From the NCBI GenBank assembly GCA_019637675.1, contig JAHBVE010000001.1, positions 682,001 through 746,000 of the forward strand: 64,000 nucleotides of DNA, written 5' to 3'. A program made the position numbers and the translations under genes. The notes below the pieces were generated by a model. The model was not told the DNA's origin. It saw only the letters and a program-made list of their open reading frames with translations, and did no database searches. This document shows positions 49,337-64,000 of this stretch, piece after piece (position 1 is the first letter of the stretch; every line of letters starts with the position of its first letter). The DNA is from Anaerolineales bacterium. GTDB taxonomy: Bacteria; Chloroflexota; Anaerolineae; Anaerolineales; UBA11579.

Positions 49337-49384
49337 GTTTCAGCCGCATGTTTCGATTATGATTTTCCTTCACGGAGGCGCGCC

Positions 49385-50479
49385 ATGGCCCGCAAAGTCA
49401 AAGGATACGTTGAACTCTACTGGACCTGTCCAAGTTGCGCCAATCAGAATGCCGGCTCGCACGCCTACTGCATGTCATGCGGCAGCCCGCAGCCGCGCAA
49501 TGTAGACTTTCATCAGGGTAGCCTTAGTCAGCTCCTCACCGATGATGAAAAGATTCGCCGTGCCAAGCAGGGTGCAGATATCCACTGCGGCTTTTGTGGC
49601 ACGCGCAATCCCGCTGGCGCCAAAAATTGCTCTCAGTGCCAGGCTGACCTTACTGCCGGGGCTAGACGGGGCTCCGGCAAAGTGCTCGGGGCTTTCAAAC
49701 CAAATGCCCAGGGTGCGGTTGCCCCGCTGGAATGTCCAAGTTGTGGGGCGCTGAACGCAGGCACACGCCGCACCTGTGGTAGTTGCGGCGGCAGCCTGGC
49801 GCCCACTCCGCCGCCTGCTAAGGCGGCTAACCAGGCCAAAGCCGCTGGCAAGCCGTTGGGCCGCAAGGTCTTTGTGATTGTGGGTCTGGTGCTCTTTTCC
49901 CTTTGCGCCATTGTCTATTTTCTTTTTCTGCGCACCACCGAGATCGAAGCTATCGTCGCCGGCGTTGAATGGCAGCGTTCGGTCGTGGTGGAGCAGTACG
50001 GACCAGTTGAAATGGAAGCCTGGCTTGATCAGGTGCCAGGCAGTGCTGCCGGTCTTAGCTGCAGCGAGCGGGTGCGTACCACGCAGAACCAGCCGCCGAG
50101 CAATTCCCGCTTCCGTGAGGTCTGTGGCACCGAATATGTCGTCGACACCGGCAGCGGTTCCGGTGAGGTCGTCCAGGACTGCGTTTACGAGGTGTATGCC
50201 GACTATTGCTCCTATACCGTGGACGCCTGGGCGCCCTACGACACGGTCGAGCTGAGGGGCGTCGGCCTGAGCCCTCAGTGGCCGCAGCCTTCCCTCAACT
50301 CTGTTCAGCGCCTGGGTGAGCAGGAAGAGAGCTACATTTGCATCTTCCGCTCAGGTGGTGATACCTACCGATATCAAACCGGCGCCTATAGCCAGTTTCA
50401 GCGTTGCGTCACCGGCTCCAACTGGCTGCTCGAGATCAATAGTCTTGGTGGGGTGACATCCATTACGCCTGCCGATTGA
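49385..50479 (+). CDS. membrane-anchored triple zinc-ribbon protein
   Basis: A 364-residue protein with three C-x2-C ... C-x2-C units at residues 15-32, 68-85 and 117-134, one membrane helix at about 161-182, and a 180-residue extracytoplasmic part rich in Cys, Tyr and Trp (LSCSERVRTT, EVCGTEYVVD, QDCVYEVYADYCSY). The Cys pairs outside may form disulfides. I do not recognise the outer domain. The plan, zinc ribbons inside and a sensor-like part outside, suggests a signalling or binding role. It is a single gene between terminators and nrdR. Confidence 0.8.
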   Translation: MARKVKGYVELYWTCPSCANQNAGSHAYCMSCGSPQPRNVDFHQGSLSQLLTDDEKIRRAKQGADIHCGFCGTRNPAGAKNCSQCQADLTAGARRGSGKVLGAFKPNAQGAVAPLECPSCGALNAGTRRTCGSCGGSLAPTPPPAKAANQAKAAGKPLGRKVFVIVGLVLFSLCAIVYFLFLRTTEIEAIVAGVEWQRSVVVEQYGPVEMEAWLDQVPGSAAGLSCSERVRTTQNQPPSNSRFREVCGTEYVVDTGSGSGEVVQDCVYEVYADYCSYTVDAWAPYDTVELRGVGLSPQWPQPSLNSVQRLGEQEESYICIFRSGGDTYRYQTGAYSQFQRCVTGSNWLLEINSLGGVTSITPAD

Positions 50480-50559
50480 CTTGCGCAGCAGGTTGCCATA
50501 CGGGCCGCCGACGCGCGTCTTAAAGTTTCTGCGAAACGCAAATTTCGTGCCAAAAATGC

Positions 50560-53816: not shown

Positions 53817-53824
<8 letters not shown>

Positions 53825-53849
53825 GCTGGGCTTCGCCCAGCCTAGCATT
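53817..53849 (+). terminator. hairpin at the end of nrdJ
   Basis: AATGCTAGGCTGGGC (53817-53831) pairs perfectly with its complement at 53835-53849 around a 3-nt loop. The nrdJ stop codon is in the left arm. The T-tract is poor (TTTAG). Confidence 0.65.
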
Positions 53850-53918
53850 TAGACTGATCTAAGGGTCGGCAGATTAGGCTCCGTTTCAGAGCTTAAAAAC
53901 GAATTCACTTCAGGACTA

Positions 53919-55337
53919 GTGATTGGCCCGATATACAAAGGCTGGTTTGTGAAGGACTCAATTGAAATTAAGGGGTTGTGGTGGCTGCCAGAAGATGACA
54001 ATATTCAGCTTCCTGGCACTCTTTCTTTTTCTCAGCAAAATGGCGCAATTCTGGAAATTATCGGCACATTTCGTGATCCTTTCTCCAACCAGAGACAAGA
54101 TGCAGCGGTCATCTTGGGAATGAGTCAAGATGGAAAACAGATAACTTTGCATCGATGTATTCCGATGAGTTGGTCTGCTCCAGTCATGAGCTTGGGTGCA
54201 GCAAAGTACAGAGCTCACCTTGTTTTTGAGGGAGTCCATTTTGAGGCAGAAGAATCCGCTTGCTTTAGCATGCTCACCGCTGCTTATTCAGATCTAGATG
54301 CATGGGTAGATATTTATGGATTTACGATTGACTATCTGCATGCTAAAGATGCTGCCTTTGAAGCACATGTTAACTATAAAAAACCATCTTCAATTTTGTT
54401 TGATATTCGAAATGATTTCCAGGCCGGCGTCAGTTTTGCTGTAAGTGGTCCTGCCATGCTATCTGTTCAAAAGGAGGCAATTATTAGGCAGGAGGCTTAT
54501 TTGTTTATCAAGACAGCAAACGATGATGATGTGCCTTTTAAGGACTTATTTGATCTTCTCAATCAATTTTCTTACCTTCATCAACTAGCTGTTCAGCGGA
54601 TGAATTATCCTATTAGGATTAAGGGCACTTCCAAGAGTAACACCCAACTTCTTTCAGATGGCACTACTTACTACCCCGACATTCATATTTATTTTCAACC
54701 TATTGAGCCATTTGTTCAGCGACAAGATAAATATGCACATGAAATGCTGTTTACTTTTAAAGATTTGGAGGATGAAAACTTAAAGGCTTGGTTTGCGGCG
54801 TTTCCAGATTATGCGACAATGATCCATCTGTATCGAAGCCTTTTCTATACCGATCGGCTGTTTATCGACACCCGATTTTTACACATTACTCAAGCCTTAG
54901 AGTCTCTTCACGGCATCTTGTTTGATGGTCGATATCTGAGTGAAGAGGAGTTTAGGAGGCGTAGAGAATTGGCGCTTGCGCCGCTCGCCGATGACTTACG
55001 AGATTGGGTTTCCTTGGCTTTGGGCAACGCAAACTACAAGCGTTTGCGCCTAAAAATTGCCGAACTGCTTGGGCCAAAGTTTCACTTGTTCGAGGGTTGC
55101 GTGGAAGATGTTGATAACTTCGTAAAGCGAGTAGTTGCAACTCGAAATTCATTCGTCCATCACAATGAAAGTAGCGATGCCTTTGCGCATGGTGAGGAAC
55201 TAGTAGCTGCTATTAATTTGTTGACTTATCTTTTTGAGGCATACATATTGGAGTTACTTCAGCTTCCTGAAGCAAGGATAAAGGAACTTTACAAGAGCCG
55301 AGTGCAAAGACATTTATCTAGATGGAGGCCTCTGTAA
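53919..55337 (+). CDS. ApeA-like HEPN protein (probable anti-phage abortive-infection ribonuclease)
   Basis: A 472-residue protein with clearly lower GC than all neighbours (many TTA, TTT, ATT and AAT codons), suggesting recent transfer. The N-terminal half has the ApeA N-terminal-domain pattern: IEIKGLWWLPEDDNIQLPGTLSF, then IIGTF and VILGMSQDGKQITLHRC. The C-terminal half is a HEPN domain of the Apea type: HEMLFTFKDLEDE, RFLHITQALESLHG and the ribonuclease motif R-x4-H at Arg409-His414 (RNSFVH). ApeA-type genes act as single-gene phage defence through RNA cleavage. GTG at 53919 is the only plausible start; its ribosome binding site (AGGA, 3 bp away) is poor. A hairpin overlaps its stop. Confidence 0.82.
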   Translation: MIGPIYKGWFVKDSIEIKGLWWLPEDDNIQLPGTLSFSQQNGAILEIIGTFRDPFSNQRQDAAVILGMSQDGKQITLHRCIPMSWSAPVMSLGAAKYRAHLVFEGVHFEAEESACFSMLTAAYSDLDAWVDIYGFTIDYLHAKDAAFEAHVNYKKPSSILFDIRNDFQAGVSFAVSGPAMLSVQKEAIIRQEAYLFIKTANDDDVPFKDLFDLLNQFSYLHQLAVQRMNYPIRIKGTSKSNTQLLSDGTTYYPDIHIYFQPIEPFVQRQDKYAHEMLFTFKDLEDENLKAWFAAFPDYATMIHLYRSLFYTDRLFIDTRFLHITQALESLHGILFDGRYLSEEEFRRRRELALAPLADDLRDWVSLALGNANYKRLRLKIAELLGPKFHLFEGCVEDVDNFVKRVVATRNSFVHHNESSDAFAHGEELVAAINLLTYLFEAYILELLQLPEARIKELYKSRVQRHLSRWRPL

Positions 55338-55355
55338 TCCTGCGTCAGGATTACA
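55333..55355 (+). terminator. hairpin at the stop of the ApeA-like gene
   Basis: TGTAATCCTG (55333-55342) pairs perfectly with CAGGATTACA (55346-55355) around CGT. The TAA stop is inside the left arm. There is no T-run, so termination strength is uncertain. Confidence 0.6.
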
Positions 55356-55436
55356 TAAAGCTGGCTAAGAATCCTCACTGACTCAGCTAGCTCAAATGCC
55401 AATCTTCGCTCAATCCTATTCCGCTGGTAGCTCACA

Positions 55437-56435
55437 TCAACCCTGCCCATACCAACCCAAGACCCGCAACGCCCGCAGCGTGTTCCAATAGCTGTCCGTC
55501 CCGCTCGCGCCTTCCATGTCAACGGCCACCGGGTCGCCGTGCACGTTCTCGCGCGGCCAGCGCCCGTTCGAGTTTTGCTTCTTTGCAACTAGTTCGATCG
55601 CCTCAGCAACCCGCGCATTCGGAGTAACCCCGGCACTGCGCATATAGTCCAATCCGCGCAGCACATCGTAGTGCTTCGAGGTCGGGTAGGAGAACAGCGT
55701 CCATGCCGGCGACTCTTCCGTCATCCGGTCGATCGCCGGCATCTCGCCGGTCGAGAGGGAGCGCAGCATCCCGCGTTCCAGGAAGTACTCCTCACCCCGC
55801 TGCCGCGCCGCCGTCACCGCCGGCGAGCCGCCGGTCGCCTTCTCGTACTCCAGCAGCCCTTCCAACACGCAGATCGTAGAGTGAAACGAGCCGCGCACCG
55901 AATCCTCCTCGCAGTTCCAGCCGCCATCGGCCTTCTGCTCACCCAGCAGCCGCTCTACCACCGGCTGCATGTCCTCGCCAAAGTACGCACCAGCCTTCAC
56001 AACCCGTCCGTTCATACAGGCCTCCACCTCGCCGGCAAAGAACGGCTTATGCCACCAGTGGATGTCCATGTCTTTTGGCAGCTCGTCCTCGGTAATGTTC
56101 ATCAGCCATTTCACGTTCGCTCGCACGCGGTCGATTGCGTTGCGGGCTTGCTCGCTTTTCGGGTCCAGCCCCATATCGCACAACAGCTGCAGCGTGCGCA
56201 GGGTAGGGTATTCAGGGATGCGCGCCTCCCCCGGCCAGGTGCCGTTTTCAGCCTGGGCTGCCAGGATCGCAGCACCCCAGCCCTCGCTGGCCACCTTGGC
56301 CCGCTCGGCAGCGATCGCCGCGTCAGACTCTCCGGTCAGGTCACGCATCACCTGCCATCGGATAGCTGGGTCAGACTCCAGTAGCCAGTCTATAACTGCC
56401 TTGGTTGGCTCGGGGATATCTAGTTTCGGTTCCAT
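55437..56435 (-). CDS. squalene-cyclase/prenyltransferase-like alpha/alpha-barrel protein
   Basis: A 332-residue protein with repeated QW-like motifs (NGTWPGE, QKADGGWNCEE, QNSNGRWPREN) of the alpha/alpha toroid fold shared by terpene cyclases and protein prenyltransferases. It lacks the DxDD acid motif of squalene-hopene cyclase, so true cyclase activity is doubtful. IDWLLESDPAIRWQVMRDL is typical of an uncharacterised bacterial family often labelled squalene cyclase. Base composition is like the rest of the chromosome. A decayed tRNA lies just upstream. Confidence 0.75.
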   Translation of the reverse strand: MEPKLDIPEPTKAVIDWLLESDPAIRWQVMRDLTGESDAAIAAERAKVASEGWGAAILAAQAENGTWPGEARIPEYPTLRTLQLLCDMGLDPKSEQARNAIDRVRANVKWLMNITEDELPKDMDIHWWHKPFFAGEVEACMNGRVVKAGAYFGEDMQPVVERLLGEQKADGGWNCEEDSVRGSFHSTICVLEGLLEYEKATGGSPAVTAARQRGEEYFLERGMLRSLSTGEMPAIDRMTEESPAWTLFSYPTSKHYDVLRGLDYMRSAGVTPNARVAEAIELVAKKQNSNGRWPRENVHGDPVAVDMEGASGTDSYWNTLRALRVLGWYGQG

Positions 56436-56441
56436 GTTCGC

Positions 56442-56513
56442 CTCCGCACACCAAGATTCGAACTCACGGCCAAGGGCTTATGAGTCCCCTGCACTACCTG
56501 AGCTTAGCTCACG
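56442..56513 (-). pseudogene. degenerate tRNA gene with CAT anticodon (Met/Ile2 type)
   Basis: Read on the minus strand, an anticodon arm GGGGACTCATAAGCCCT with CAT anticodon and a canonical T-loop (TTCGAAT, in GAGTTCGAATC) are recognisable. The T-stem no longer pairs (GTGAG against CTTGG), the D-arm (GCTCAGGTAGTGC) has a mismatch and too short a loop, and no 5' acceptor strand matches the 3' end. It is therefore a decayed copy or 3' remnant, not a working tRNA. Confidence 0.6.
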
Positions 56514-56540
56514 CGCAGCATCGCTGCCCACACATTCTTT

Positions 56541-56577
56541 GTCATCCCGAACGAGGCCGTAGGCCGAGGAGGGATCC
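56541..56577. repeat. partial 'catcccgag'-type dispersed repeat
   Basis: GTCATCCCGAACGAGGCCG followed by GGCCGAGGAGGGATCC has the end-plan of the 27761-27861 elements (GTCATCCCGA end and a GGGAT inverted match). It lies in the gap next to the tRNA remnant. The rest of this 300-bp gap (56578-56735) holds a second GAGCTCACGCGCAG copy near 56645 but no gene. Confidence 0.5.
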
Positions 56578-56735
56578 GTCAAGGGCCAATTAGATTCTGC
56601 CTAATCTGAAAAGCATCTGCTTCATTTCTCCGGCTTACCTTGCCTGAGCTCACGCGCAGAAGCCTCGCGTGGCGTCAGCCGAGCAGCTTTCTCCCGCGCA
56701 GCGCAGCTGCGCACTCATCCTTCCGTCTTCCGCCT

Positions 56736-57344
56736 TCATCCTTGATCCTTACTTCGTACCACCATCCCAAACACAACCGCCGCCACTCCAATAGCCCCCA
56801 GGATCAACGCCCACAGCGTGCCAGCCGAACTTGCCACTCCGGCGAAGAACGGCGTATTGTGCCCCGGCCCGATGGCGAAACCTAAAGCGGCCAGCGCCAT
56901 GCGCCCGGCTGCCTGCTTGCTGCGGCCTACTAACAAGCCCGCCAGCGCCCCGGCGATCGCCGAGGTCAGGAACAGGTCCACCGCAAAGCGGGTCAGGATG
57001 GTGCCCAGCCGGCCCGGCAGCGCCTGATTGCGGAACACCATATTGGCGATCGGCTCCTGTACGCTGCTGGCAAAGAAAGCTGCAACCTGCGTCAGCGTCA
57101 GCAGGGCCACGAAGGCCAGCACCGCCAACCAGGTATTCTGCGGCAACCGCGGGCGCAGCGCATCATAGGCCCACGCCACCAGCAGCCCGGCCAGCGCCGC
57201 CACCACCGCCCCGAACGGCGCAATGAACCAGATCGGCCGTATCAGCGCCTGGTGGATGAACAGGAAAGCCAGAAAGCCGCCCAACCCGGCCAATACCCCA
57301 GCCAGGGCGGTGCGTGAGGTCAGGAACGGTTGCGTCTTTGCCAT
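56736..57344 (-). CDS. integral membrane protein of unknown function
   Basis: A 202-residue protein with about five membrane segments (residues about 12-32, 37-60, 70-92, 113-142 and 170-195), rich in Ala, Gly and Leu. The loop GPGHNTPFFAGVASSAGTLWAL between the last segments is distinctive but I cannot name the family. No partner gene is near. The ATG at 57344 has no strong ribosome binding site. Confidence 0.7.
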   Translation of the reverse strand: MAKTQPFLTSRTALAGVLAGLGGFLAFLFIHQALIRPIWFIAPFGAVVAALAGLLVAWAYDALRPRLPQNTWLAVLAFVALLTLTQVAAFFASSVQEPIANMVFRNQALPGRLGTILTRFAVDLFLTSAIAGALAGLLVGRSKQAAGRMALAALGFAIGPGHNTPFFAGVASSAGTLWALILGAIGVAAVVFGMVVRSKDQG

Positions 57345-57733
57345 GCCTCATCCTAACATGGCCTGCATATCATCTGTCCAATGCCTTGATTTCTAGTCGA
57401 GTTTCTCTCACGCACAGATAACCGCTGTATAAGTGCGCTATGCCCTTCCCGCTCCCGCGCAGGATCCTGCGCAGCGCAGCTGCGCCCACCCTACAGTGGG
57501 TTGTCAAGCCCCTTGAACTATTAACGGCTGGCCCCACACCCGTTTCCGCCATGATGATGATTAAAACTTTCTCCTCGCCTGAGCTGGCGGTGTGCCGGCG
57601 GCATAGCCTTTCAAGCTTGCAAGCCAGCATCCTCAGCCATTCGCTCACCAGGGTAACGCTGAACAGAGATTTGCGTTTTCTCAGGGATAGCTGTCCAGCG
57701 TCAGCTGGAAACTTCATTACAAGGAGCTTACCT
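57345..57733. other. 389-bp gap without a recognised gene or element
   Basis: This divergent gap separates the membrane-protein gene (-) from the SH3 lipoprotein gene (+). It contains GCGCAGCGCAGCTGCGC-like palindromic DNA near 57470-57487 and a CACGCACAG at 57411-57419, but no complete riboswitch, tRNA or coding frame with good signals. GGAGC precedes the ATG at 57734. The length would allow a long mRNA leader. Confidence 0.5.
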
Positions 57734-58543
57734 ATGAGCAGAAGAGTACTCGTGGCCCTGGTGTTACTTGCCCTGGCCCTGGCCGCTTGCGGCCCCAGCA
57801 CCGAGTCGGTCATCGCTACCGGCATCGCCCAGACCCAGCAGATCAGCCAGCTGGAGACGGCGGCCGCCGGCGGCAACGCCACCAGCACGCCGCTCGCCCA
57901 GCAGACCGCAACCGAGGCCACCCAGCAGGTCACCACCAGCCGGGATGTCAACATGCGCTCCGGCGACTCGACCGCCTATGGCGTCGTGACCGTCATCCCC
58001 GGCGGCCAAACGGTGGATGTGCTCGGCATCAACGCCGCCGGCACCTGGCTGCAGGTGCGCTATGCCAGCGCCACCGGCTGGATCTCGATCAGCTTCATCG
58101 AGGGTGATGTCCTCGCCGGCCTGCCCGTCGTCACGCCGCCACCGCCCCCAACCGGCGGCGGGGGAGGCGGTGGCGGCAACAACACCGGCGGCGGAGGTGG
58201 CGGTGGCGACACCGGCAACACCCAAGACTTCTCGCTGGTGCTCTCGGCCAACAACACCGACAACAAGTCCATCACCGGTCAGGTTCCGGCCAACACCACC
58301 CACCGCATCATCATCCGCGTGGATGATCTCACTGGCAACTCCGAAGTGGATATTGCCTTCCAGTGCGATACCAGCATGCCCGAGTATGTAGAGATCACCG
58401 CCCCCGGCGCAGATGACAACACCATCTGCAACAACAACTGGTCGCACCAGGTCTCGCCCGGCAGCAACACCTTCACCATCTCGCTCAAGATCACCCAGAG
58501 CAATCCCGTCAAGTGGACTGTGATCGCCAACGTAAGCCCATAG
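57734..58543 (+). CDS. lipoprotein with a bacterial SH3 domain
   Basis: A 269-residue lipoprotein: signal peptide with lipobox LAAC (Cys at residue 19), a Thr/Gln-rich linker, an SH3b domain at about 68-130 (VTTSRDVNMRSGDSTAYGVVTVIPGGQTVDVLGINAAGTWLQVRYASATGWISISFI), then a very low-complexity Pro-Gly linker (VTPPPPPTGGGG ... GGGGG) and a C-terminal beta domain. SH3b domains bind cell-wall peptides, so it is probably an envelope-binding protein. The ATG at 57734 follows AAGGAGC. Confidence 0.88.
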   Translation: MSRRVLVALVLLALALAACGPSTESVIATGIAQTQQISQLETAAAGGNATSTPLAQQTATEATQQVTTSRDVNMRSGDSTAYGVVTVIPGGQTVDVLGINAAGTWLQVRYASATGWISISFIEGDVLAGLPVVTPPPPPTGGGGGGGGNNTGGGGGGGDTGNTQDFSLVLSANNTDNKSITGQVPANTTHRIIIRVDDLTGNSEVDIAFQCDTSMPEYVEITAPGADDNTICNNNWSHQVSPGSNTFTISLKITQSNPVKWTVIANVSP

Positions 58544-58557
58544 CCTCAAAGTAACAA

Positions 58558-58597
58558 AAGAGCGGCCTGCATTTGCAGGCCGCTCTTGTTTTCTTTT
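58558..58597. terminator. bidirectional terminator between two lipoprotein genes
   Basis: AAGAGCGGCCTGCA and its complement TGCAGGCCGCTCTT (58558-58587) form a perfect stem with a 2-4 nt loop, followed by GTTTTCTTTTTC on the plus strand and preceded by an A-rich stretch that gives T-residues on the minus strand. Confidence 0.88.
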
Positions 58598-58614
58598 TCA
58601 TTTGCGAGGAGTGC

Positions 58615-59448
58615 TTACGGGATCGAAACCGTCAGGGTGTAGTCCACCGTGCGGCCGCCCTGCGGCACCACTTCGATGATGTAGTACTGCGTCTGCGGCA
58701 GGTTCAAGCTGAAGTTGGTCACGCCGTTCTGCGCCCGGGCGTACGGCTCACCGGTGTTGAAGCCCCAGATCGTCAGGGCCGCATCGCTGGCGCTGGTGTT
58801 CACGCTGACCTCCAGCTGCTTGCCGGCCTGCGCGTAGATCGTGTAGGTCACCGGGTTGCCGCCCACCGTGCGCCCGGTGTAACTGGCGCTGCTGGCCCCG
58901 CTGGCGAAGTTGACCGGCACCGCGAACGCCACCGACAGCGTGAAGTCCTGGGCGCTGCCGCCGCCGATCACGGTGAACTCGTAGTCCTGCGTCTTGGTCA
59001 GCAGCGTGCGGTACGAGTTGTAGCGCAGCGACTCAGGCAGCAGCGTGCTGCCGTCGGCGCCCTTGATCTCAAGGATGGCGCTGCTGGAGGGGGTGAACAG
59101 ATTGGCAATGATCACCTGGTTGGCCGCCGCGCCAGCCCTGAAGCTGACCCGTTGGTTGGCCTCCACCCGGCCGGTCACGATGCCGTTGGTGGCGCCGGTT
59201 GCCAGGTTGATGCGCCCTTCCTCCTGGGTGGGGGTGGGCTCCGGCGTAAACGTCGCGGTCGCTTCCGGCTCCGCGGTCGTCGTAGGCGGCGCCTCGGTAG
59301 GCGGCACGGCCGCGGCCGTTTCGGTGCTCACCGCCGAAAGCGTGCTGGCCACGCTGGTGAACAGGGCATTGGCGTCCGGCGTTGCTGGCGCCGGGCTGCA
59401 GGCCGCCAGGGCCAGCAATACGAGCAGGGGTAGGGCGATTCGTTTCAT
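58615..59448 (-). CDS. lipoprotein with pre-peptidase-like beta domains
   Basis: A 277-residue lipoprotein with MKRIALPLLVLLALAAC (lipobox LAAC), then a long Thr/Pro/Glu linker (PPTEAPPTTTAEPEATATFTPEPTPTQ), and two beta-rich modules (GRVEANQRVSFRAGAAANQVIIANL ... and GGNPVTYTIYAQAGKQLEVSV ...). This resembles secreted pre-peptidase C-terminal (PPC) domains, often found on Chloroflexota surface proteins. The ATG at 59448 follows AGGAGAAG. It is probably anchored on the outer surface; its partner is unknown. Confidence 0.8.
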   Translation of the reverse strand: MKRIALPLLVLLALAACSPAPATPDANALFTSVASTLSAVSTETAAAVPPTEAPPTTTAEPEATATFTPEPTPTQEEGRINLATGATNGIVTGRVEANQRVSFRAGAAANQVIIANLFTPSSSAILEIKGADGSTLLPESLRYNSYRTLLTKTQDYEFTVIGGGSAQDFTLSVAFAVPVNFASGASSASYTGRTVGGNPVTYTIYAQAGKQLEVSVNTSASDAALTIWGFNTGEPYARAQNGVTNFSLNLPQTQYYIIEVVPQGGRTVDYTLTVSIP

Positions 59449-59543
59449 GTTTCTTCTCCTTACTTCGATAAAGATTATCCCACTAGAAATTAACACCTGG
59501 ATTTGTGATTCGTCCCGCGCCGCTTTATGTATACTCCCTCATT

Positions 59544-60188
59544 ATGGCTGCAAAACATCTTGTGCTGGTTGCCGGCAACATCGGCGCCGGCAAAACCTCG
59601 CTCGTCACGCAACTGGGTGACCGCCTGGGTTGGCGCACTGGCTTCGAAACCGTGGAGACCAACCCGTATCTCGGCAAATTCTATGCCGATATGCGCAGCT
59701 GGGCCTTCCACCTCCAGGTGTTCTTGCTCGCTCAACGCTCGCAACTCCACCTGGAAGCCTACCGTGACCCGAGCTCAGCCATCCTCGACCGCAGCATCTA
59801 CGAGGACTATTACATCTTCGCCCGCGCCCTGCACTCGCTCGGCAACCTCAGCCCTGAGGATCTGGAGACCTACTCACGCGTGTACGAGCTCGTGATCGCC
59901 TCGCTGCCCAAGCCCGATCTGCTCATCATGCTGAAGGCGCCCGTGCCCGCGCTGCTCGGCCGCATCCAGGCCCGCGGTCGCGAGATGGAAGCCGGCATCA
60001 CCGCCGAGTACCTCGGCCTCTTGGATGGCTATTACGATGAATGGCTGCGCAGCTTCGATCTCTGTCCGGTGCTCACCATCTCCTCCGGCGATCTCGACTA
60101 CGTCAACGACGAGGCCCACCTCGACATCGTCATCAAGACCATCGAGGACAAGCTCTCCGGCCGAGACGAACTCATCTTCGATGAGTAG
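59544..60188 (+). CDS. deoxynucleoside kinase (dAK/dGK type)
   Basis: A 214-residue kinase of the deoxyadenosine/deoxyguanosine kinase family. The P-loop GNIGAGKTS is at residues 11-19, with the catalytic Glu region VETNPYLGKFYADM, the conserved LDRSIYEDYYIFARAL (DRS motif) and a RIQARGREME lid. It salvages deoxynucleosides to dNMPs, complementing nrdJ. A TATACT is at 59530-59535. It is convergent with the M1 peptidase, with stop codons abutting. Confidence 0.9.
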   Translation: MAAKHLVLVAGNIGAGKTSLVTQLGDRLGWRTGFETVETNPYLGKFYADMRSWAFHLQVFLLAQRSQLHLEAYRDPSSAILDRSIYEDYYIFARALHSLGNLSPEDLETYSRVYELVIASLPKPDLLIMLKAPVPALLGRIQARGREMEAGITAEYLGLLDGYYDEWLRSFDLCPVLTISSGDLDYVNDEAHLDIVIKTIEDKLSGRDELIFDE

Positions 60189-61745
60189 CTACTGGTAGTC
60201 CGAGAAGTACAGCCCCATCTCCGGAATGTCTGGCACATCCGTCGCATACAGCCAGCCATCGAAGAACTCCTGCAGGTCCTGGCCGCTCACCTCACTGGCG
60301 ATGGCCACAAAATCCGCCGTGGTGGCATTGCTATCCTGGAAGCGGGCGTAATACGCCTGCAAGATGCCGAAGAAGGTCTCGTCGCCCACGCGCTCACGCA
60401 GCGCATGCAGAGCCAGCGCACCGCGGTAGTACACGCCAAAGTTGAACAGGTCGTCCGGCCCGGGGTTGCCCGGCGGCGAGGCGAATGGCCCGCTCTGCGC
60501 GATCTGCCAGTAGTACCACTCGATCTCGTCCTTCAGCGCCGCTTCGCCGTAGGCGTGCTCAGTCCACAGTACGCTCAGGTAGGTGGCGAAGCCTTCGTTC
60601 AGCCACAGATCCTGCCAGCAAGTGAGCCCAACGCTGTTGCCGAACCACTGGTGCGCCAGCTCGTGCGCCACCACGTACTCATCCGTAAAGCCAGAGCCGA
60701 ACACGCTCATCGTCTGGGTTTCCAGCGCGAAGCCAAAGTCAATATCGTGCACGATCACGCCGGTGACCTCAAAGGGGTAGGGGCCGACCAGCTCATTGAA
60801 TAGCTCCAGCATTTCAGGCGTGCGTGCAAAATCGTCACGCACTTCTTGCGGAATATCGCGCTCGAAATAATCACGGATCTGCAGCCCGTTGGGGCCGGCG
60901 CTGGTCTCGATGTCAAACACGCCGATGCCAACCGTCGCCAGATAGCTGGCCATCGGATGAGCTGAGTTCCATACAAAGGTGCGCGTGCCGTCGCCATGGT
61001 CAATCGTGTCCTGCAGCAGGCCGTTGGCGGCGGCCATGTACGGCTCCGCCACGGTGATGGCGTAGCTGTAAGTGGCCTTGTCGGAGGGATGCTCGTTGAC
61101 CGGCATCCAAGTGGAGTTGCCGCTCGGCTCGGCCGCCACATAGGCGCCCTCGCCATCGCCGTACCAACCCCAGCCCACCTCGAACTCCTCCATGCCGCTG
61201 AAGTCCATGCCTTCGCCCGGGCTGCCGCTGTAGGCCACGGCTACTTCGAAAGTTTGCCCAGCCTCCAGCGCACGCGCTGGCGTGATGGTCAGCTCGTTGC
61301 CCTGGCGGGTGTAGTCTGCCGCCTGGCCCTGCACGCTCAGGCTGTCGACTTGCATACCGGCCAACTCCAGGTTGAAGCTGCTCAGAGTCTGGGTGGCGAT
61401 AGCGTCAATGCGCACCGCACCGTCCAGGTGCCGGAGCGCCAGATCCACGGTGAGCTCAATGTGATAGTGCTGAACGTCGTAGCCGCCATTGCCCAGGTGC
61501 GGGTAGTACGGGTCGCCCAGGCCTTCGGCGCCGGGTGCGGCTGCGCCGCCCTCGCCGACGCTGGGCGGCAGCACTGGGCACGCCTGCAACGGAGGTGCTG
61601 GCTGCGTATTGCCGCCAAAGTCGCCGCTGCCGCCGCTGGGCGTGCGCTGTGCCTCGGGGGTGGGGGTGCTGGGCGCTGGGGCGCCAAAGCGGCAGGCAAT
61701 CGAGATCAACCCTAGAATGCAAAGTGGCAAAAGAGTGCGTTTCAT
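60189..61745 (-). CDS. secreted M1-family zinc metallopeptidase lipoprotein
   Basis: A 518-residue lipoprotein (Cys18 in LISIAC) with a Pro/Gly/Ser linker and an M1 fold. The zinc site is HELAHQW at 361-367 with the third ligand Glu384 in NEGFA. The usual GAMEN substrate motif is replaced by ALETQ (Glu342 kept), as in a subset of bacterial M1 enzymes. A later Tyr (FGVYYRGALALHALRE) fits the transition-state Tyr. No ERAP-like C-terminal domain follows, so it is a short form. ATG 61745 is chosen over GTG 61751. It lies 28 bp downstream of the gdx gene. Confidence 0.9.
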   Translation of the reverse strand: MKRTLLPLCILGLISIACRFGAPAPSTPTPEAQRTPSGGSGDFGGNTQPAPPLQACPVLPPSVGEGGAAAPGAEGLGDPYYPHLGNGGYDVQHYHIELTVDLALRHLDGAVRIDAIATQTLSSFNLELAGMQVDSLSVQGQAADYTRQGNELTITPARALEAGQTFEVAVAYSGSPGEGMDFSGMEEFEVGWGWYGDGEGAYVAAEPSGNSTWMPVNEHPSDKATYSYAITVAEPYMAAANGLLQDTIDHGDGTRTFVWNSAHPMASYLATVGIGVFDIETSAGPNGLQIRDYFERDIPQEVRDDFARTPEMLELFNELVGPYPFEVTGVIVHDIDFGFALETQTMSVFGSGFTDEYVVAHELAHQWFGNSVGLTCWQDLWLNEGFATYLSVLWTEHAYGEAALKDEIEWYYWQIAQSGPFASPPGNPGPDDLFNFGVYYRGALALHALRERVGDETFFGILQAYYARFQDSNATTADFVAIASEVSGQDLQEFFDGWLYATDVPDIPEMGLYFSDYQ

Positions 61746-61773
61746 TGTCACCTCAAGGCCGTTAGTGCGTCAG

Positions 61774-62094
61774 CTAGGCAGAATTTTTAAGCCCGATGAT
61801 GCTGACGATCAGCAACCCCAAGAATACCAACTTTGCAGGATTTGCGACTTCTTTAAACAGGAGAATGCCGAGCAGACTGGCGCCCACGGTCCCAATGCCT
61901 ACCCACACAGCATAAGCCACGCTCAGCTCGAGCTTCTTGGTGGCGATCGAAAGCAGATATACGCTGAGGCCTAGGGTAATTACCGCGAACAAGCTCGGCC
62001 AGAGCTTGGTGAACCCCTCGGTGTATTTCAGGGCTACGGCCCAGCAAACTTCAAACAACCCAGCAAGCAATAAGATGATCCAAACACCGGTCAT
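61774..62094 (-). CDS. gdx: SMR-family guanidinium exporter (Gdx/SugE)
   Basis: A 106-residue four-helix transporter of the small multidrug resistance family. The membrane Glu15 in LFEVCWAVALKYTEGFTKLWPS is the proton/substrate residue, and the surrounding sequence is of the Gdx (SugE) type rather than EmrE/Qac. Gdx proteins export guanidinium in exchange for protons. A guanidine-III riboswitch directly upstream supports this strongly. GGAGG is 6 bp before the ATG. Confidence 0.93.
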   Translation of the reverse strand: MTGVWIILLLAGLFEVCWAVALKYTEGFTKLWPSLFAVITLGLSVYLLSIATKKLELSVAYAVWVGIGTVGASLLGILLFKEVANPAKLVFLGLLIVSIIGLKNSA

Positions 62095-62096
62095 AA

Positions 62097-62128
62097 GACG
62101 CCTCCAAACAAAAAAATTTGTTTGCGTC
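62097..62128 (-). promoter_or_regulatory. SD-trapping expression hairpin of the guanidine riboswitch
   Basis: On the minus strand the last five aptamer bases GACGC can pair with GCGTC beyond the ribosome binding site, and AAACAAA pairs with TTTGTTT around a T4 loop. This 12-bp helix (62097-62128) leaves GGAG in a bulge. It is mutually exclusive with the aptamer helix, so guanidine binding should free the Shine-Dalgarno sequence. A T7 run is also present, so a termination role is an alternative. Confidence 0.6.
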
Positions 62129-62164
62129 GTCTTGTCCTGACCGGGTACGGCGCGTCTCGTCCGG
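62124..62164 (-). ncRNA. guanidine-III (ykkC-III) riboswitch aptamer
   Basis: Read on the minus strand, a 41-nt block has the full ykkC-III pattern: CCGGACGAG, CGCGCCGTACCCGG, then TCAGGACAAGACG and a terminal ACGC. The pseudoknot helices CCGG/CCGG and GCGCCGT with ACGACGC can form, the latter with one C-A mismatch that is a G-C pair in the consensus. It lies just upstream of a guanidinium exporter gene, exactly the expected target. Confidence 0.88.
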
Positions 62165-62209
62165 GTGTTGCTTTGAGAATACAGCGGCTAGCTTAACCCC
62201 AGGTGAACA

Positions 62210-64000
62210 CTAGCGCACCAGCATGCGGCTTACCACCACCGCTTCGGTGGGGGTGGCGCCGGCAATCTCTTTGCCGGCCATGCCTTGATACACCAGGATC
62301 TTGCTGCCTTCTTTGGTGAACTTCTTGTTCACCAAAGCTTGCCCGGTCAGCGTGCCTTCGCTATCCAGCGAGCAGCTGGTGACCTCGCCGATGCGCTTGC
62401 CGTCGGCGTCCGTGACCGGGTCGCCCTGGTGAGCGATGCGCACGCCCTGCGGCAAGCGGAAGCGGGCCACTTCGCGTTTGCGCTCTGCTTCCTGCTCCAG
62501 GAAGACGTCACGACCCACGAACCACGGCTTGTAGGTCTTGACGAAGGCGCGGAAGCCGGAGTGGCCCACGCCCAGGTTGAGCGGGCCGGCCAGCTCATGC
62601 CCATACAGGGGCAGGCCGGCTTCGATGCGCAGCGAGTCGCGGGCCGCCAAGCCGCACGGCTTGAGGCCGTGCTTGGCGCCGGCGGCCAGCAGTGCATCCC
62701 ACAAGGCCAAAGCCTTGTCGGGATGCACGAACAGCTCGAACGAGACTGGCTCACCGGTGTAACCGGTGCGCGAGAGGATGAGGTCAAAGCCGCCCAGTTT
62801 CACTTTGGCGACGCCGAAGCGTTTGAGCTTGCGGATGGTTTGCTTGTCGGCCGCATTGGCGCCCAATGCCAGCAAGACCTTGCGAGACTTGGGGCCTTGC
62901 AGCGCCAGGTCCACGCGCTGGTCCTTGCCGCTGCTGGCGTCGCGCAGGTTGCGCAGCCGGGCGCCGCGGCCCAGCACCAGGGCGCCGGGCTGCTGCGCGT
63001 CCACCAGCACCGCGCCGGCTTGCACCGCGGTGAGCCAGGCCCAGTTCTTGTCGTCGTTGGCGGCGTTCACTACCACCAGGTAATGCTGCTCAGCCATGCG
63101 ATAAACGATCAGGTCATCCAGCACATTGGCGTCGGCATCCATGAAATGGGTGTAGATCGACATACCCACGGGCAGGCTGGCAATGTCGTTGCCGCACACC
63201 GAGTCGAGGAAGCTGGCCGCCTGCAGGCCGCTCACATCGTATACGCCCATGTGGGTGACATCGAACAGGCCGGCGGCCGTGCGCACGGCGGCATGCTCCT
63301 CACGCACGGAGCTGTAGCGCAGCGGCATGTCCCAGCCGGCGAACGGAACGATCTTGGCGCCCAGCGCCACATGCGCATCGTACAAGCCCGTGCGTTTGAT
63401 GGCTGCCTCGGCAGGCTCATGCCAATCGAACTTGGGCAACGCCTTGGCTTTGGACTTGCCAATGCCGAAGTAGAACGGCTTGTCGGCTGGGGCGGCTTTG
63501 CCCGCTGGCGCAGCCAGCTTGAGCTTGGACTCGCGCACGGTCACCGGGCCGGGCGCCTTGCGCTGGAGATCGGCCGGGTCGATGGTCACATACCCATCCG
63601 AGAGGGCGCGCAGCCAGGCGGTCGCCAGCCCAAACTGAGCCCGTTTCACGCCTAGCAGGTAGCCGCCGCCTGGCAGGGCTTTGATGCTGCCATGTACATC
63701 GCCCTTGGGTGTGTGCATCAAGCAGGCGGCGCCTTTGCCGGCGGATTCGATATCGCTGGCGATGGCCATGTTGAGTAGGACCGTGGCTTGCGGGCCGTGT
63801 ACCTCAATGCCGATCCATGCGCCTTTGGCTTTGGGCTTGTCGTCTATATAGTAGAAGTGCGGATAGCCACTCGAGGTGGCTTTGAAATCGATGCCGGCTT
63901 TCTCCGCCAAGGCGCGGGTGCGCAGCTTGGCATCCTCCAGCACGGCGAAGTCCACCTTGGCGCGCTGGCTCAGGCTGGTCTCGCTGCGGTCACGGTAGGG
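62210..64000 (-). CDS. gcvT: glycine cleavage T protein (aminomethyltransferase) with an N-terminal extension, 5' end outside the window
   Basis: From about residue 190 of the visible part this is GcvT: GLYDAHVALGAKIVPFAGWDMPLRYSSVREEHAAVRTAAGLFDVTHMG, then LDDLIVYRM, SRTGYTGE and CGLAARDSLRIEAGLPLYGHEL. It transfers the aminomethyl group of glycine to tetrahydrofolate. Upstream are at least 170 more residues (VDFAVLEDAKLRTRALAEKAGID ... GYLLGVKRAQFGLATAWLRALSDGYV) that are not GcvT core; the frame runs open to the window edge. A GTG at 63955 could start it, but a longer fusion is more likely. Confidence 0.88.
   Translation of the reverse strand, partial: PYRDRSETSLSQRAKVDFAVLEDAKLRTRALAEKAGIDFKATSSGYPHFYYIDDKPKAKGAWIGIEVHGPQATVLLNMAIASDIESAGKGAACLMHTPKGDVHGSIKALPGGGYLLGVKRAQFGLATAWLRALSDGYVTIDPADLQRKAPGPVTVRESKLKLAAPAGKAAPADKPFYFGIGKSKAKALPKFDWHEPAEAAIKRTGLYDAHVALGAKIVPFAGWDMPLRYSSVREEHAAVRTAAGLFDVTHMGVYDVSGLQAASFLDSVCGNDIASLPVGMSIYTHFMDADANVLDDLIVYRMAEQHYLVVVNAANDDKNWAWLTAVQAGAVLVDAQQPGALVLGRGARLRNLRDASSGKDQRVDLALQGPKSRKVLLALGANAADKQTIRKLKRFGVAKVKLGGFDLILSRTGYTGEPVSFELFVHPDKALALWDALLAAGAKHGLKPCGLAARDSLRIEAGLPLYGHELAGPLNLGVGHSGFRAFVKTYKPWFVGRDVFLEQEAERKREVARFRLPQGVRIAHQGDPVTDADGKRIGEVTSCSLDSEGTLTGQALVNKKFTKEGSKILVYQGMAGKEIAGATPTEAVVVSRMLVR

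Follow-up and report, generated by a model that had tools for sequence, protein, structure and literature searches.

The gene 3' of nrdJ is an intact member of the ApeA family

The locus described here raises the question of what a markedly AT-rich gene directly after nrdJ does in an Anaerolineae genome and how it came to lie there. The window, which is the whole 64,000-nucleotide stretch of DNA analyzed, holds this gene at positions 53919-55337 of the forward strand as an open reading frame of 472 amino acids with a GTG start. A sequence-only reading of the window had assigned it to ApeA from an N-terminal pattern, KGLWWLP...PGTLSF, and a HEPN ribonuclease motif, R-x4-H, at residues 409-414, and had named a profile search as the check. 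The search bore out the assignment. Pfam ApeA_NTD1 (PF18862) matched residues 16-287 (positions 53964-54779; E 1.9e-43, 149.4 bits against a cut-off of 25.5), a region that includes both parts of the pattern, at residues 18-24 and 32-37. HEPN_Apea (PF18739) matched residues 321-451 (positions 54879-55271; E 1.9e-17, 64.4 bits against a cut-off of 24.4). The PADLOC profile PDC-S58 spanned residues 14-464 of the 472 with an E-value of 1.4e-72. No NCBIfam entry was found for the protein at E 1, and no solved structure matched it by sequence.

An AlphaFold2 model built from 71 sequences had a mean pLDDT of 90.9 and a pTM of 0.88. It consists of a beta-rich N-terminal half, the proposed sensor (pLDDT 91-92 for the domain), followed by a helical HEPN half, the proposed RNase. 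The gene is a real, intact and strain-specific ApeA-family member. As a system it is ordinary; its location is modestly interesting, and only the slot in which it sits is somewhat unusual.

The model was also compared with known folds. VIA-align gave Z scores of up to 8.8 for the whole model (4qxz, 2.7 A over 94 residues) and 7.5 for the N-terminal domain alone, with PilZ domains, which bind a cyclic dinucleotide, at 5.0-6.8. Foldseek searches against the PDB and viral models gave no match under E 0.001. The apparent resemblance of the first barrel of the N-terminal domain to PilZ and Hcp/tail-tube barrels, at middling Z scores of 5-8.8 that are common by chance, is only a lead.

Conservation of the HEPN active site

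The R-x4-H motif of the protein reads RNSFVH (positions 55143-55160, forward strand), exactly where it had been placed from sequence. R409, N410 and H414 do not vary in an alignment of 71 homologs, a set in which conservation of the motif is biased since the pattern [TV]RNYLTHY served to retrieve part of it. R409 and H414 are also invariant among the homologs found by the N-terminal profile, and there the residues between them differ (RNYLTH, RNWCVH, RHKSTH). RNSFVH is therefore a variant with its catalytic residues intact. In the second HEPN motif, E-x3-[KR], E328 is kept and position 332 is G, compared to R in 91% of homologs; this motif is common in many HEPN families without being universal (PMC3710099).

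Near the active site the protein departs from most homologs at S411, F412, V413, H415 and G332. Ten of the 42 nearly invariant columns differ, G332 included, equaling the most for any of the 71 sequences. These differences, together with the long branch of the protein in a quick tree, could mean that this is a diverging or failing copy that is losing its function while its fold and strictest residues remain. We consider this unlikely. The frame is intact, R409, N410, H414 and E328 are all kept, and the difference in the motif is largely inflated by the collection of homologs partly with RNYLTHY; the profile-found relatives with RNWCVH and RHKSTH vary there as well.

Distribution, base composition and neighbors of ApeA genes

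The sequence-only reading had called the host unusual, which does not hold: ApeA_NTD1 is present in 12 of 298 Anaerolineae (Chloroflexota) genomes, and ApeA homologs span many phyla, archaea, contigs from viral collections and plasmids. In the same class, a stop codon interrupts the N-terminal domain of one ApeA-like gene (G290:C28:217245-218120), and three genomes (G328, G077 and G175) carry two ApeA copies each.

None of 40 relatives searched, including 10 congeners, contained a match to the protein itself, and so the gene is not a syntenic core gene. Scanning with it revealed no close relatives in the genome contigs, viral contigs or phage records covered. E. coli contained no DNA match of the gene; an E. 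coli HEPN relative was found, in a region with integrase remnants. In the quick tree the long branch of the window protein falls within a group that mixes archaea with Chloroflexota, Bacteroidota and Cyanobacteriota. This placement and the spread of the family would fit repeated horizontal transfer.

The gene is more AT-rich than its neighbors, as first described. Its GC content is 0.423 and its GC3 0.391, compared to a GC3 of 0.66-0.87 in the eight neighboring genes, and its GC lies at z = -8.9 relative to windows of 1419 bp taken from the rest of the 64 kb (mean 0.634, sd 0.024, lowest 0.577). Among the 59 homologs with enough flanking DNA for comparison, 58 were likewise AT-richer than their own flanks, by 10 points on average. 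AT-richness is therefore not specific evidence of import here, and low GC characterizes the family as much as it signals recent arrival in this genome.

To look for a partner gene, 658 neighboring ORFs of 84 homologs were clustered. No conserved partner emerged, with no family present in more than 7 of the 84 loci. The largest family, a type IIG/ISP restriction enzyme, accounted for those 7 loci (L125, L126, L138 and four others) and lay at most about 0.8 kb from the ApeA homolog. Plasmid and E. coli homologs stand alone, several of them close to toxin-antitoxin genes, IS elements or remnants of integrases. ApeA is a single-gene system without a conserved partner, in agreement with the original description of this gene.

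These neighborhoods also bear on another explanation, that the protein is a HEPN toxin for stress or plasmid maintenance with a trigger other than phage. Toxin-antitoxin systems commonly contain HEPN domains (PMC3710099) and ApeA homologs do occur on plasmids. However, a conserved antitoxin partner is lacking, the PADLOC matches are defense candidates, and restriction enzymes recur next to some of the homologs, which makes a toxin of this kind improbable compared to a defense role.

A variable slot at the 3' end of nrdJ

The new finding here is a variable slot in the DNA that follows the 3' end of nrdJ. It covers positions 53825-55385, is unmatched in the congener G008 and is filled by different genes in other congeners. 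Homology to congeners stops at the nrdJ stop codon or within a few bases of it and picks up again near 55386-55435 in the two closest congeners. The gene had been described as lying between an nrdJ hairpin and a squalene-cyclase-like gene. The hairpin is real: a perfect inverted repeat with two 15-nt arms and a 3-nt loop at 53817-53849 (forward strand) overlaps the nrdJ stop codon. It is not followed by a T-run, and a terminator scan found no terminator there. The second neighbor, at 55437-56435 on the reverse strand, had no Pfam match at E 1, leaving its squalene-cyclase label unconfirmed.

nrdJ was found in nine genomes of the genus, the window's included, and in six of them a low-GC gene follows it directly. 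The GC content of all six genes was recomputed over their open frames and ranged from 38.8% to 46.9%; nrdJ itself has about 65-66% in the window genome (G000) and G008. The occupants are a HEPN (PF05168) protein in G008 (38.8%), a protein without an assigned family in G002 (41.9%), ApeA in the window genome (42.4%), a 229-aa protein with no Pfam match over the cut-off in G007 (43.6%), a 122-aa protein on the opposite strand in G003 (46.4%) and an Rce1-like protein in G004 (46.9%). A HEPN domain is thus found in two of the six. In G008 no start codon occurs in the frame upstream of base 162; the gene there may be truncated on its 5' side, or it may begin within the frame. The slot is without such a gene in the three other genomes, G009, G010 and G005. 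Compared to window positions 53824-62221, the neighborhood in G005 is rearranged 3' of nrdJ and part of the window's downstream genes is inverted.

The base composition of the ApeA gene, so far from that of its flanks, could be taken as an artefact of assembly or binning that joined foreign DNA into the genome. However, the gene lies inside a 930-kb contig, both flanking sequences align with congeners, and five congeners have other low-GC genes in the same slot, all of which make an artefact very improbable.

Across the 64 kb, only two window stretches longer than 1 kb are unmatched in G008: the nrdJ slot and 49341-50511, which makes a further variable slot on the opposite flank of nrdR-nrdJ. 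Immediately ahead of nrdR the window carries a zinc-ribbon protein gene (49385-50479) that G008, G007 and G002 lack at the corresponding position. Further variable sites were seen in G002 and G005 and, thus, the nrdJ slot is not the sole one. The nine genomes suggest, and do not prove, that the nrdJ 3' end is a true hotspot. No target-site duplication was seen, as neither of the direct-repeat pairs found sits at both ends of the inserted stretch. In G008, G007 and G002 the slot gene is followed on its 3' side by a GIY-YIG gene of roughly 100 aa (L021 5885-6436), which in G008 has direct repeats of 48, 28 and 23 nt on its flanks that are 81-87% alike. The window has one remnant of this flanking repeat, at 55364-55413, and no GIY-YIG gene there. 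One tentative explanation, which we regard as possible and rather doubtful, is that the nrdJ 3' end serves this genus as a docking site at which single genes, AT-rich and partly defense-like, would be swapped as one-gene cassettes with no integrase in evidence; in this genome ApeA would be the current occupant.

Proposed mode of action and comparison with known systems

Our main reading, to which we give a probability of roughly 0.7, is that the gene by itself makes up an abortive-infection system, one belonging to the ApeA family (PADLOC candidate PDC-S58). The protein would act as a HEPN dimer, with the N-terminal domain holding the HEPN RNase inactive and sensing a product of infection. The freed RNase would then cut RNA, either tRNA or mRNA, and growth of the infected cell would halt before phage release. 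Horizontal transfer would have brought the gene into the variable site next to the nrdJ 3' end. As for the trigger, the likeliest kind may be a small nucleotide released when DNA is broken down, which is favored because the title of a 2026 preprint (cited in PMC13405049) reports deoxydinucleotides as activators of ApeA. The suggestion in the sequence-only reading that trigger and target may be new finds nothing in the sequence to bear it out.

We infer the anti-phage role and abortive infection from the family. ApeA is cited as a defense system of Gao et al. 2020 (in PMC7699616 and PMC10952713). A 2013 survey described ApeA-NTD1 fused to HEPN and predicted RNase activity, HEPN domains with R-x4-H being metal-independent RNases (PMC3710099). 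The window protein shares with ApeA the same two domains in the same order, the R-x4-H motif and the single-gene arrangement; it is, however, far in sequence from every homolog in the set collected here, at best about 29-31%. It matches PDC-S58, itself a computational candidate, over nearly its full length, and nothing counts against membership. The S. aureus prophage protein Tha is likewise a single effector with a C-terminal HEPN RNase and R-x4-H. Tha degrades RNA when switched on by phage tail proteins; unlike the window protein, it has 301 aa and no recognizable N-terminal domain, and its trigger is minor tail proteins (PMC11087260). The two may at most work alike, and no shared membership is claimed.

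The abortive-infection reading is supported by both domains scoring over their cut-offs, the catalytic residues, the confident model and the lack of a partner. Further support comes from the nearby IIG/ISP enzymes, the plasmid homologs, the E. coli region with integrase remnants and the absence of the gene from the 40 relatives. It is weakened by the active-site differences, by a trigger known from a title and by the fact that most PADLOC candidates are without validation (PMC12988326). No experiment on the window protein or PDC-S58 was found.

Taken alone, the ApeA gene extends a known defense family by one more genome, and the AT-richness seen throughout the family is a caution that low GC does not prove recent import. 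If the nrdJ slot is a true exchange site, it would provide a position-based way to find small defense genes where defense islands are not obvious, as well as a natural experiment on the movement of single genes without an evident integrase.
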